The notes under the pieces were generated by a model. The model was not told the origin of the DNA and did no database searches. It worked only from the letters and a program-made list of their open reading frames with translations. The translations under genes were made by a program, and so were the position numbers. Positions 2,538 to 29,082 of a DNA stretch of 64,000 nucleotides are shown piece by piece; the stretch's first letter is position 1; every line of letters begins with the position of its first letter. Origin of the DNA: Gammaproteobacteria bacterium (GTDB lineage: Bacteria; Pseudomonadota; Gammaproteobacteria; Ga0077536); assembly GCA_016191285.1 (NCBI GenBank), contig JACPPA010000016.1, positions 124,001 to 188,000 of the forward strand, in the 5' to 3' direction.

Positions 2538-3455
2538 ATGAAAATTAACTGCGCATTAATCGGCTCCGGCAATATCGGCACCGACCTCATGGTCAAGGCG
2601 CTGCGGAGCCCGTGGCTGAACCCGGTGTGGATGATCGGCGTTGATCCGGACTCCGATGGCTTGGCCAAGGCGCGCGCGGCGGGCTTGAAAGCGACCCACG
2701 ACGGGCTTGAAGCCGCGCTTCCCCATTTCAAAGCCGATGGCATCCAAATCGCGTTCGATGCGACCTCGGCGTATGCGCATGCCGAGAACAGCCGCAAGGT
2801 GCTGGCGCAAGGCGTGTTCATGATCGATCTCACCCCGGCTGCGATCGGCCCATTTTGCGTGCCGCCGGTCAATCTCGAACAACACATGCAAAGCCAAACC
2901 GCGAACGTCAATATGGTGAGCTGCGGTGGTCAGGCGACCATCCCCATCGTGCACGCGGTGGCGCGCGTACAAGCCGTGGCGTATGCCGAAATCGTCGCGA
3001 CGGTCGCGTCGAAATCGGCGGGCCCGGGCACGCGCAAGAATATCGATGAATTCACGCGTACCACGGCGCGCGGCATCGAGCGCGTCGGCGGCGCCAAGAA
3101 GGGCAAGGCGATCATCATTCTAAATCCGGCGGAACCGCCGCTGTTGATGCGCGATACCGTGCATTGTCTGACCGAAGACACTCCGGATGAAGCGAAGATC
3201 ACGGCGTCGATAAAAGCCATGGTCGCCGAAGTCCAGCGTTATGTGCCGGGCTACAAGCTGAAACAAAACCCGGTGTTTGATGGCAAGCGCGTATCGGTAT
3301 TTTTAGAAGTGGCGGGGCTCGGCGATTACCTGCCGAAGTACGCCGGCAATCTCGACATCATGACCGCCGCGGCGCTGCGCACGGGTGAGATGTTGGCGCA
3401 GCGCTTGGGCAACGGCAGTTTAAGTTTTCCGCAAATGCGCACGGAGGCTGCATGA
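2538..3455 (+). CDS. dmpF: acetaldehyde dehydrogenase (acylating)
   Basis: A 305-residue acylating aldehyde dehydrogenase that converts acetaldehyde, CoA and NAD+ to acetyl-CoA. The N-terminal Rossmann motif GSGNIGTDL is at residues 9-17, and the catalytic Cys129 lies in [10 protein letters not shown]. The start chosen is ATG 2538, which has a GAGG Shine-Dalgarno just upstream; a GTG at 2532 would add two residues but overlaps that site. In this family the enzyme forms a channelling complex with the aldolase encoded next (dmpG), whose start overlaps this stop by 4 nt. That overlap fits the equimolar expression such a complex needs. Confidence 0.94.
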
Positions 3456-4495
3456 TGGTCAAATCCATGCAGGTTAAAATTCACGATATGTGTCTGCGTG
3501 ATGGCATGCACCCGAAGCAGCATCGGATCACGCTCGAGCAAATGCATTCCATCGCGACCGGGCTCGACGATGCCGGCGTGGATTACATCGAAGTGACGCA
3601 TGGCGACGGTCTGGGCGGCGCGTCGATCAATTACGGCTTCTCGGCGTTTAGCGATGAGCAATATCTCCGGCACGTCATTCCAGCGTTAAAGCAGACCAAG
3701 GTGTCGGTCCTGCTGATTCCAGGGATTGGTACGGCGGACGATCTACAGATGGCCTACGAGTGCGGGATCCATACCGTGCGGGTCGCGACGCTGTGCACCG
3801 AAGCCGATGTATCCGAGCAGCACATCAAGCGCGCGCGAACCTTAGGGTTAGACACGGTCGGCTTTCTGATGATGGCGCACATGATCGAAGCCGATGCGTT
3901 AGCCGTGCAGGGCAAGCAAATGGAAGACTACGGTGCGAACTGTATCTATTGCACCGATTCGGCCGGCTACATGCTGCCAGCCGATGTCACGGCGCGGATC
4001 GCCGCACTCCGCCGCGTGCTGAAACCGGAGACCGAGATCGGTTTTCATGGGCATCATAATCTGGCGCTGGGCGTGACGAATTCAATCGCCGCGGTTGAAG
4101 CGGGAGCGAATCGCATTGATGGCTCGGCGGCCGGGCTCGGCGCCGGTGCGGGCAATACGCCGGTCGAAGCTTTCGTCGCGGTCTGCAAGCGCATGGGGAT
4201 CTCGACCAATGTCGATCTCTACAAAATCATGGATGTCGCCGAGGAGCGCGTGCTGCCGATCATGGATCAGCAGATCAGACTCGATCGCGATTCGTTACTG
4301 ATCGGTTACACGGGTGTGTATTCGACGTTTCTGCTGTTCGCGCAACGGGCAGCGGCGCGTTATGGCGTGTCGTCACGCGACATCCTGGCCGAGATGGGGC
4401 GGCGGCGAACCGTCGGCGGACAAGAGGATTTGATCGAAGAAGTCGCCATGGAATTACAGCAGCAACAAGCCGCACGGAAGGTCGCCAATGCTTAA
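3452..4495 (+). CDS. dmpG: 4-hydroxy-2-oxovalerate aldolase
   Basis: A 347-residue HMG-CoA-lyase-like TIM-barrel aldolase that splits 4-hydroxy-2-oxovalerate into pyruvate and acetaldehyde, passing the acetaldehyde to DmpF. Metal and catalytic elements are present: LRDGMH with Asp17 near the N-terminus, [10 protein letters not shown] with the HxH metal pair, and the DmpG_comm-type C-terminal region. The ATG overlaps the dmpF stop (ATGA), and the 3' end overlaps dmpH by 8 nt, so translation of dmpF-G-H is probably coupled. Length is typical for the family. Confidence 0.95.
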
Positions 4496-26778: not shown

Positions 26779-27729
26779 TCAACTTGCTAACGACCGCCAC
26801 ATTTCCGCATCGCGCTCGGCGGTCCAAATTCTGGGATCGACCAGTCCGCCTGCTTCATCGAACGCACGCGTCACATCGAACGGCAGGCAGTGATCGAAAA
26901 TCACCCAATCTCCGAATTCGGTTTTCAGCGCCGCGTAAGTTTCGTCATACGCCTGTTTCAGCGTTTTGCCAGCCGCGCGCGCGGCGCGGACATTGCCAAA
27001 CATTTTCGTGATGAAGGCGCGCGTACCGCTCAAGGCTGCCGCTACTTCTGCTGGAGTGGTGAGCGCTGCGCCACGACCGGGAACCAATGCGCGTGGTTGC
27101 AGAGCGGCGATGCGATCAAGCGTCGCCGGCCATTCGGTCAGGTAGGCGTCGCCGGTATAGGGCGTTGCTCCGAACTCAACCAAATCGCCGCTAAAGAGCA
27201 CGCGCTCTTGCGGCATCCAGGCCACCGTGTCGCCCTTGGTGTGACCGCGTCCGATCTGCATCAAGCGCACTTCGGTGCGGCCGAGCCACAGTGTGATTTC
27301 GCCGCTAAAAACGACATTCGGCCAGGTGAGACCCGGGATTGAATCCACCGCCTGAAACAGGCGCGGGAAGCGTTCGAATTCCGATTGGTAATCTTGCTGG
27401 CCGCGTTCGACGATGAGATCGTAGGTCTCGCGGCTCGCAATAATATTCGCGGCATCGTACCCGCTCGCGCCTAACACGCGCACCGCATGGTAGTGCGTGA
27501 GGACTACATGCTTAATCGGTTTGTCGGTGACGGTTCTGATCTTGGCGATGACATCCTGGGCCATCACGGGCGTGGCCTGCGCATCCAACACCATCACGCA
27601 ATCGTCGCCGATGATGACGCCGGTATTCGGATCGCCCTCGGCCGTATAGGCATAGGCGTTGTCGGCAAGTTTGGTGAAGGAGATCTGCTTGGGGGCTAGA
27701 TCTCCCTTGGAGGCGAAGGCTTTATTCAT
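26779..27729 (-). CDS. MBL-fold metallo-hydrolase with atypical HYHAVR motif
   Basis: A 316-residue protein with metallo-beta-lactamase fold layout: VIIGDDCVMVLDAQATP near residue 40, HVVLTHYHAVRVLGASGY near 75, IGRGHTKGDTVAW and FSGDLVEFG. The central HxHxDH motif is replaced by HYHAVR, so the second zinc site's Asp-His are missing, although the downstream His (GRGH) and Asp (SGD) are kept. It may therefore bind one metal or hydrolyse an unusual substrate. About 80 C-terminal residues form a helical extension, the part duplicated at 25299-25629. Genes of this type occur near aromatic catabolism loci, but no substrate can be named. Confidence 0.78.
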   Translation of the reverse strand: MNKAFASKGDLAPKQISFTKLADNAYAYTAEGDPNTGVIIGDDCVMVLDAQATPVMAQDVIAKIRTVTDKPIKHVVLTHYHAVRVLGASGYDAANIIASRETYDLIVERGQQDYQSEFERFPRLFQAVDSIPGLTWPNVVFSGEITLWLGRTEVRLMQIGRGHTKGDTVAWMPQERVLFSGDLVEFGATPYTGDAYLTEWPATLDRIAALQPRALVPGRGAALTTPAEVAAALSGTRAFITKMFGNVRAARAAGKTLKQAYDETYAALKTEFGDWVIFDHCLPFDVTRAFDEAGGLVDPRIWTAERDAEMWRSLAS

Positions 27730-27812
27730 TGGGATCCTCTCAACTAGTAATCATTCTTGTCGAAGTTACAGTGGTCGATTTGCATTGCCCACTCAAAATT
27801 CACCTGTGGCAC

Positions 27813-27998
27813 TTTAAGGAACCTCTGAATAAGTCCATCCTGGACTTATTCAGAGTACGGGAAGCAAAAAGTATGATTTTTGCTTCCCTTCATTTTCAAT
27901 GGTTTGCAACCATCGAAAATGGCGGCACCTCCCTGTGCCGCGGGAAGCTCTGCTCCCTGTGCCGCGGGAAGCTCTGCCTTTTGCAGAGCTTCCTTAAA
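27813..27998. mobile_element. MITE-like element built of five successive hairpins
   Basis: The 186-bp element has imperfect terminal inverted repeats: TTTAAGGAACCTCTGAATAA at 27813-27832 pairs with the complement of 27979-27998, and 18 of 21 terminal positions match. Inside are perfect or near-perfect stems: 14 bp (27823-27836/27842-27855), 12 bp (27859-27870/27877-27888), 14 bp with one mismatch (27891-27904/27908-27921), 7 bp (27922-27928/27935-27941) and 11 bp (27967-27977/27983-27993). A 24-bp perfect tandem duplication occupies 27929-27952 and 27953-27976. There is no transposase and no clear target-site duplication. It lies between two genes on the minus strand, 28 nt beyond the FAH stop. 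Confidence 0.65.
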
Positions 27999-28026
27999 CG
28001 ATCGCGCGTCTGCGAGGCGCATGTTT

Positions 28027-29013
28027 TTACCCGGCAATTGCCGTCACTATTTGGTCGATGGCGCCAAACAGTGATTCGCCATTGGCGCCGAACATTTCGA
28101 TTCGAACGCGGTCGCCAAAATGTAAAAACGCGGTGGTCGGCGCGCCGGCGCTCAATGTTTCCAGCATGCGTCGTTCGGCCACGCAGGCGGAGCCGCGGCT
28201 GCGATCATAGTTCGATACCGTGCCAGATCCGAGTATTGTCCCGGCGCCGAGCTTACGAGTTTTCGTCACGTGCGCGATGAGATCGTGAAAGCTAAAGGTC
28301 ATGTCCTCGCCGCACTCGGGCCGACCGAACAGCGCGCCGTTGATATGCGAGGTCAGCGGTAGATGGACTTTCCCATCGCGCCACGCACCACCCAGTTCAT
28401 CCGGCGTGATGGCGACCGGTGAAAACGCGGTGGAAGGTTTGCCATGATAGAACCCGAATCCTTTCGCGAGTTCGTCCGGAATTAAATTGCGCAGTGACAC
28501 ATCGTTGACCAGCATCAAGAGCACGATGTGGGGCGCGGCGTGCGCGGCATCGGTACCCAGCGGCACATCGTCGGTGATCACGGCGACTTCGCCTTCGAGA
28601 TCGATGCCCTGTGCCTCACTCACCGCGAGAATGGGATCGGTCGCGCCGAGTAGATCATCCGATCCACCCTGATACACCAAGGGGTCGGTCCAAAAACTCT
28701 CGGGCATTTCCGCGCCGCGCGCTTTGCGCACTAACTCAACATGATTCACGTAGGCGCTACCATCAACCCAGTGAAACGCGCGGGGTAGCGGTGCCGCCGC
28801 TTGTGCTGCATGGAAGGAGCGCGCGTCATCGAGCTCACGCCGGCAGAGCGCGTCGTAAATTACACGCAATGCATCAACCACTTCAGACCAGTGATCGAGC
28901 GCCTCCTGCAAGGTGCGCGCGATTTGCGGGACGGGCAAGCATTTCGTCAGTGTGCGATCGACGACTACCAACTGACCGTCACGCGTGGTTGATTTAAGAC
29001 TCGCTAGTTTCAA
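28027..29013 (-). CDS. fumarylacetoacetate hydrolase family protein (likely fumarylacetoacetase)
   Basis: A 328-residue FAH-fold protein, divergently paired with homogentisate dioxygenase, so most likely the last step of tyrosine/homogentisate breakdown: fumarylacetoacetate to fumarate and acetoacetate. Key stretches are AFHWVDGSAYVNHVELVRKARG, GIDLEGEVAVITDDVP with the ExE metal ligands, LLMLVNDVSLRN, and GAGTILGSGTVSN. The protein is of the shorter bacterial type. Homologues begin MKLATLK, matching a TTG at 29013 (LKLASLKS); a second TTG at 29019 would add two residues. No maleylacetoacetate isomerase gene is nearby. Confidence 0.82.
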   Translation of the reverse strand: MKLASLKSTTRDGQLVVVDRTLTKCLPVPQIARTLQEALDHWSEVVDALRVIYDALCRRELDDARSFHAAQAAAPLPRAFHWVDGSAYVNHVELVRKARGAEMPESFWTDPLVYQGGSDDLLGATDPILAVSEAQGIDLEGEVAVITDDVPLGTDAAHAAPHIVLLMLVNDVSLRNLIPDELAKGFGFYHGKPSTAFSPVAITPDELGGAWRDGKVHLPLTSHINGALFGRPECGEDMTFSFHDLIAHVTKTRKLGAGTILGSGTVSNYDRSRGSACVAERRMLETLSAGAPTTAFLHFGDRVRIEMFGANGESLFGAIDQIVTAIAG

Positions 29014-29082
29014 GAGCAATCCAATTCGCTAATCAAGACGTCAGAATCTATACTCGTCGCACATCGACTATCAAGCAAGCCA

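Follow-up and report, generated by a model that had tools for sequence, protein, structure and literature searches.

In the window, i.e., the whole stretch of 64,000 nucleotides that was analysed and to which all positions refer, an MBL gene (26779-27729) and a FAH gene (28027-29019) are separated by a 176-bp element in which no gene of its own was recognised. The minus strand is the sense strand for both genes, and the element lies upstream of MBL, 84 bases from its start codon. The preliminary description of this stretch had drawn the limits at 27813-27998; the element does lie inside this interval, which however also takes in the target-site duplications and one extra base on each side. The element and its parts are as follows:

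27814-27817, no strand assigned: left target-site duplication TTAA
27818-27993, no strand assigned: the element, 176 bp, equal to the family consensus of about 152 bp plus one 24-bp duplication
27818-27827, plus strand: left terminal inverted repeat GGAACCTCTG, an IS5-type end
27823-27855, minus strand: hairpin H1, 15-bp stem, minus-strand loop AGGAT with the GGA motif
27859-27888, no strand assigned: hairpin H2, 12-bp stem, loop GTATGA (GTRYGA in the family)
27891-27921, no strand assigned: stem-loop H3, with one A-C mismatch
27922-27941, minus strand: hairpin H4, minus-strand hexaloop AGGGAG on a stem closed by C-G (ANGGAX)
27929-27952, no strand assigned: copy 1 of the 24-bp tandem repeat, made of the 3' half of H4 and the 5' arm of H5
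27953-27976, no strand assigned: copy 2 of the 24-bp tandem repeat
27966-27993, no strand assigned: right terminal hairpin H5, in which the end sequence in direct orientation stands opposite the inverted end GCAGAGCTTCC
27994-27997, no strand assigned: right target-site duplication TTAA

The five hairpins take up nearly all bases of the element, the stems of H1 and H2 are perfect, and the folding energy of the stretch is far below that of its dinucleotide shuffles (z of -12.1 for DNA and -12.8 for RNA), with none of 200 shuffles as good. The five stems, the terminal inverted repeats matched at 18 of 21 positions and the two 24-bp units at 27929-27976 were all located where they had been described. 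The outer arms of H1 and H5 consist of the terminal sequences, and the left end recurs in direct orientation as the 5' arm of H5. The idea that the element had grown by duplication is borne out for the 24-bp unit, as the other copies have a consensus of about 152 bp and the repeat is private to the window copy, while two other copies (L002 and L007) carry other duplications which end at the same hairpin arm.

The host genome (5.1 Mb in 60 contigs, with the window at 124001-188000 of contig C40) was found to carry about 42 copies of the subfamily to which the window element belongs, and the subfamily end, with at most one mismatch allowed, occurs at 108 places in comparison to one place for the reversed pattern. 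The full copies are mostly about 152 bp long. Among 33 distinct full copies from several genomes with ends of this kind (type A, GGAANCTCTG, with 4-bp duplications), the duplication is exact in 23, in comparison to 13% in the mismatched-pair control, and it is mostly CTAA, TTAA or TTAG (YTAR). Two IS5-family ISs of the host genome have ends of the same type as the element, one of 1158 bp with an intact transposase (NF033581, 337 bits) and TTAG duplications (L061), and the other with a broken transposase and CTAA duplications (L064). In addition, several copies are inserted in a REP-like palindrome of the host genome, and for one of them (L017, ATTCGCGGCTAA/CTAAAGCTGCTCCC) the target is visible with CTAA duplicated. 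The full copies with matched 4-bp duplications, together with two IS5-family ISs having the same ends in one genome, argue so strongly for the non-autonomous transposon among the options originally listed that we regard the MITE reading, judged from the sequences, as good as settled, and IS5-family transposases would probably move the element in trans. The genome-wide search for the ends and for a matching IS that had been proposed as a check thus returned many copies and an IS with the same ends; with the compensatory stem changes given below, this is the reverse of the single copy, missing IS and uncompensated stems that had been named as grounds for abandoning the idea.

CTAA/TTAG occurs within the REP-like palindrome GTGGGAGCCGCTTTAGCGGCGAATC of the host; this palindrome repeatedly serves as the insertion site of the element or adjoins it (L004, L010, L017 and L147). 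Solo hairpins of about 27 bp which consist of just the two terminal repeats were also observed (L036, L040, L048, L110 at 3996-4022 and L126 at 3411-3437); they have TTAA or CTAA on both sides and are perhaps the smallest possible mobile derivative. REP palindromes are 20 to 40 bp long, intergenic, present in high copy number and associated with RAYT transposases. The element shares with the REP/BIME systems and their RAYT transposases the character of a high-copy intergenic palindrome, and membership in this group was rejected on the basis of its 176 bp, its terminal inverted repeats and its target duplications, in comparison to a palindrome of 20 to 40 bp.

Many copies end exactly at the tip of H5 (e.g., L003, L004 and L009), with at least a dozen stopping at the same H5 point in genome G013, and others start at the tip of H1 (L029 and L030). 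In the tip-truncated copies the outer end and its duplication are gone. Colinearity of both flanks in congeners shows that the junctions of L004, L005 and L011 are real, and misassembly was ruled out as the source of the truncation for these three copies; in L011 the neighbouring gene has lost its last codons to the junction. Our reading is that the tip truncations probably reflect breakage or template switching at hairpin tips. In the right flank of L005 (L196, about 3278-3440), another dispersed family, unrelated to the element and with ends CCTGTCGGACTTAGG, starts exactly at the tip-truncated end; more copies of this family are present in the host genome and in G003.

The complete chromosome of G048 contains head-to-tail repeats of a 124-bp unit (end-H1-H2-H3-H4), so that the element acts like a unit with direct copies of the end as its borders and a single inverted end to close it. 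The locus L226 (near 2569152) has three 124-bp units head to tail, followed by a partial unit. The BOX elements of Streptococcus pneumoniae are modular, structured, tandem-capable short repeats without genes, which are thought to be mobilised in trans. The present element is also short, structured, modular, able to form tandem repeats and devoid of a gene; the likeness is one of description between unrelated lineages, and the present element differs in having explicit ends and duplications and a fixed Csr-type loop.

A transcription barrier between the MBL and FAH genes had been another of the options listed, and a role specific to this pair is not supported, as copies were found in many unrelated contexts. 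The more general account, in which the element acts as a transcription barrier or bidirectional terminator between whichever genes flank it, is in agreement with the very stable RNA fold and with the position of 20 copies, out of 78 that have a gene on both sides, between convergent genes. It is hard to reconcile with the 46 of these 78 copies which lie between co-directional genes, with alignments that have no conserved T run after the last stem, and with the conservation of loops described below, which termination does not need, and we therefore consider it very improbable. Among the co-directional pairs, 18 copies were oriented minus-sense and 28 plus-sense (p = 0.18), and no promoter or terminator was identified for the element. 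The congeners offered no clean empty site for the window copy. Where both genes could be placed in them, the spacing between MBL and FAH is about 1.75 kb, and the one congener examined here, G003, has a 552-aa FAD-monooxygenase-like gene between them, which the window genome does not have there. At 27729-28027 the window genome has the element instead, which may be what a gene loss has left behind.

Other genera and families carry elements built in the same way, at about 77% identity, and a pattern of the H2 loop and H4 was matched in MAGs titled Gammaproteobacteria, Thiotrichales, Sedimenticola and Halothiobacillus. With a covariance model of the H2-H3-H4 core, matches were obtained in 61 of 369 genomes of Gammaproteobacteria and in 42 of 398 genomes of the phylum, most of the phylum-level matches being in another class (family f207). 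The core was found inside at least four kinds of ends, with duplications of 4 or 5 bp; besides type A these are:

Type B, ends GAGGGTGTCGCAAAAG: 5-bp duplications, exact in 12 of 17, in comparison to 0% in the mismatched-pair control
Type C, ends GGTAACCTCTAAAAA: 4-bp duplications, exact in 7 of 9, in comparison to 11% in the control
A further type, ends CAGGCTGTTGAAAAA, in G141 and G257: duplications read by eye only, e.g., CTAA in L374

Type C ends resemble those of type A, of which they may be a variant. Two kinds of ends occur within one genome in JALWKV (types A and B) and in G141 (type A and the CAGGCTGTTG type). A search for an autonomous IS with type B (5-bp) ends found none, and a composite query gave no match in the plasmid collection. 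In five copies of G153 (L234, L235, L238, L239 and L244) a different left part, TCAGGTCGCTCCCGCCCCTCCCTGGGCTGCGCGACATAAGTCC, replaces the usual end and H1, which may be another end type or a fused element.

From these comparisons the H2-H3-H4 core is far older than the ends around it. The preliminary description contained neither the core shared across the class nor the swapping of ends; both were found here. Known IS5-family MITEs have in common with the element the GGAANCTCTG inverted ends, the YTAR duplications, the lack of a gene, the many copies and the matching IS, while the present element differs from them in an interior which is conserved across classes and lies inside other ends in other lineages; beyond the ends, no sequence shared between the element and the ISs of the host genome was noticed. 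The main rival to a functional core is an ordinary IS5-derived MITE made of mere palindromes with functionless loops, in which template-switch correction would give rise to double changes without selection. The filler of such a MITE is not expected to survive in four different kinds of ends.

The covariation of the stems, which had been suggested as a check of RNA structure, shows compensatory changes. Among 24 diverse core sequences, 96.1% of the cells pair in comparison to 80% for shuffled and about 48% for slid sequences, both sides have changed in 21 of 32 pairs, and the covariation score is 0.437 in comparison to 0.143. Template switching that corrects quasi-palindromes could also give rise to such double changes. 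In the first 25 sequences the stem pairs are 94% Watson-Crick, G-U pairs are rare on both strands, and their strand preference is not significant. For all 107 copies, with events counted once per genome, pair and type, there are 47 G-U events on the minus strand and 29 on the plus strand (p = 0.05, borderline), a lean that is suggestive only. The high share of Watson-Crick pairs with rare G-U on both strands is what passive palindromes would give, as are the absence of an orientation bias and the clustering of breakpoints and duplications at hairpin tips, a pattern typical of replication or repair acting on hairpins.

Several of these observations also agree with another account, in which the hairpins, as single-stranded DNA or cruciforms, are recognised by a transposition, replication or other host DNA protein and the fixed TCC loops of the plus strand are the contacts: the G-U pairs are near-symmetric between the strands, the breakpoints are centred on the tips, and the outer arms of H1 and H5 are made of terminal sequences. 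The fixed-length target duplications, in turn, indicate a double-strand DDE mechanism and not a single-strand one, and the loop pattern fits a known RNA-protein rule in detail, which makes the DNA-hairpin account improbable in our judgement.

In the minus-strand reading, the loop of H4 is ANGGAN in 106 of 107 copies, a count which is inflated for the copies of the MAG set since these were collected with a TCC-containing pattern, and the covariance model also scores the loop letters. All four bases occur at positions N and X of this loop, and its closing pair is C-G in nearly all copies. The apical loop of H1, which lies outside the search model, contains GGA in 98 of 107 copies. Among 23 copies from the phylum-level search, mostly from the second class, NGGA was kept in the H4 loop of 20 and GGA in the H1 loop of 19, and the letters of the H4 stem differ in these copies, e.g., GGCCATGGATGGCC. 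Each unit thus has two GGA loops (H4 and H1), and tandem arrays have more. The folding program at times pairs the A with a U of the hexaloop, in which case the printed loops are shorter.

The high-affinity site for CsrA/RsmE is an ANGGAX hexaloop immediately on top of a stem; its N and X are looped out, and binding is weaker for loops without N (PMC4005645). The fixed and free positions of H4 fit this rule, and many H1 loops fit the weaker class. On the basis of this match we put forward the Csr/Rsm proposal: the best-conserved part of the element resembles a site bound by CsrA, a global RNA regulator, and the structured RNA that had been left as one option among others gains specific support from the minus-strand ANGGAX loops. 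A functional Csr-type RNA module would be the best-supported account of the conservation of the core, with a chance that we put somewhat above even. A passive palindromic MITE leaves the loop pattern unexplained, namely the loops that stay fixed despite turnover of the stems across two classes, the GGA loop common to the two unrelated stems of H1 and H4, and the fixity of only those bases that CsrA contacts; we accordingly rate this account as rather unlikely, even as the main rival.

An Rfam search with the window stretch and 13 loci returned no relevant family, and the models of CsrB, RsmY and RsmZ were unmatched. Among genomes with the element, 53 of 61 were found to have a CsrA gene, and among those without it 15 of 19; with CsrA about equally frequent in both groups, its presence has no power to predict the element and is no test of the proposal. 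Genome G151 (a 95%-complete assembly in 470 contigs) has several copies with mostly intact GGA loops, and a CsrA gene was not found in it.

The most likely working of the element, as suggested by the loops, would be as follows. IS5-family transposases would move the MITE-like element in trans, and transcription of the minus strand would present the ANGGAX hexaloop of H4 and the GGA loop of H1, i.e., the recognition signature of CsrA/RsmA/RsmE, to which CsrA may then bind. Such a transcript could serve as a leader that places the downstream gene under Csr control, or transcripts produced in bulk or from tandem arrays could act as a decoy for CsrA. On balance we favour an IS5-mobilised MITE whose old, separately conserved hairpin core is carried in several different transposon ends and whose minus-strand transcripts would bind CsrA as leader or decoy. 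Hence we propose a terminus-swapping MITE with a portable Csr/Rsm hairpin module, for which the mobility is well supported and the transcription and CsrA binding are presumed from the loops; as a transposon, the element may take a regulatory switch from one gene to another. The fuller version, in which a mobile family crosses classes, switches ends, multiplies in tandem and, with a portable CsrA/RsmA-binding module as its conserved cargo, rewires or titrates the Csr system of its hosts, is offered more tentatively, as a possibility with a little less than an even chance.

CsrB, RsmY and RsmZ also have GGA apical loops, including ANGGAX stem hexaloops and loops without N (PMC4005645), while the present element differs from them in being mobile and multicopy, with two GGA loops per unit and no Rfam match. 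The QMITEs of Coxiella burnetii are MITEs with stable folds, as is the present element, and some of them are transcribed as small RNAs; CsrA is unmentioned in their description, and the searches reported there found no orthologues of QMITE1 in other genomes (PMC5896051). The work on small RNAs of Alcanivorax concerns two particular CsrA-related small RNAs and not a dispersed repeat (PMC9788540). In a literature search, subscription papers aside, no description of this element was found.

MITEs are usually seen as shrunken, passive remnants of one IS. Here, the interior outlasts the ends, with one core in at least four kinds of termini and two classes and with loops that fit a protein-RNA rule, and the hairpin-tip truncations provide a natural record of DNA-hairpin breakage. 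If CsrA binds the core, new Csr targets and decoys would arise directly from mobile DNA in many Gammaproteobacteria, and the idea offers a concrete test of how global post-transcriptional networks may gain members.
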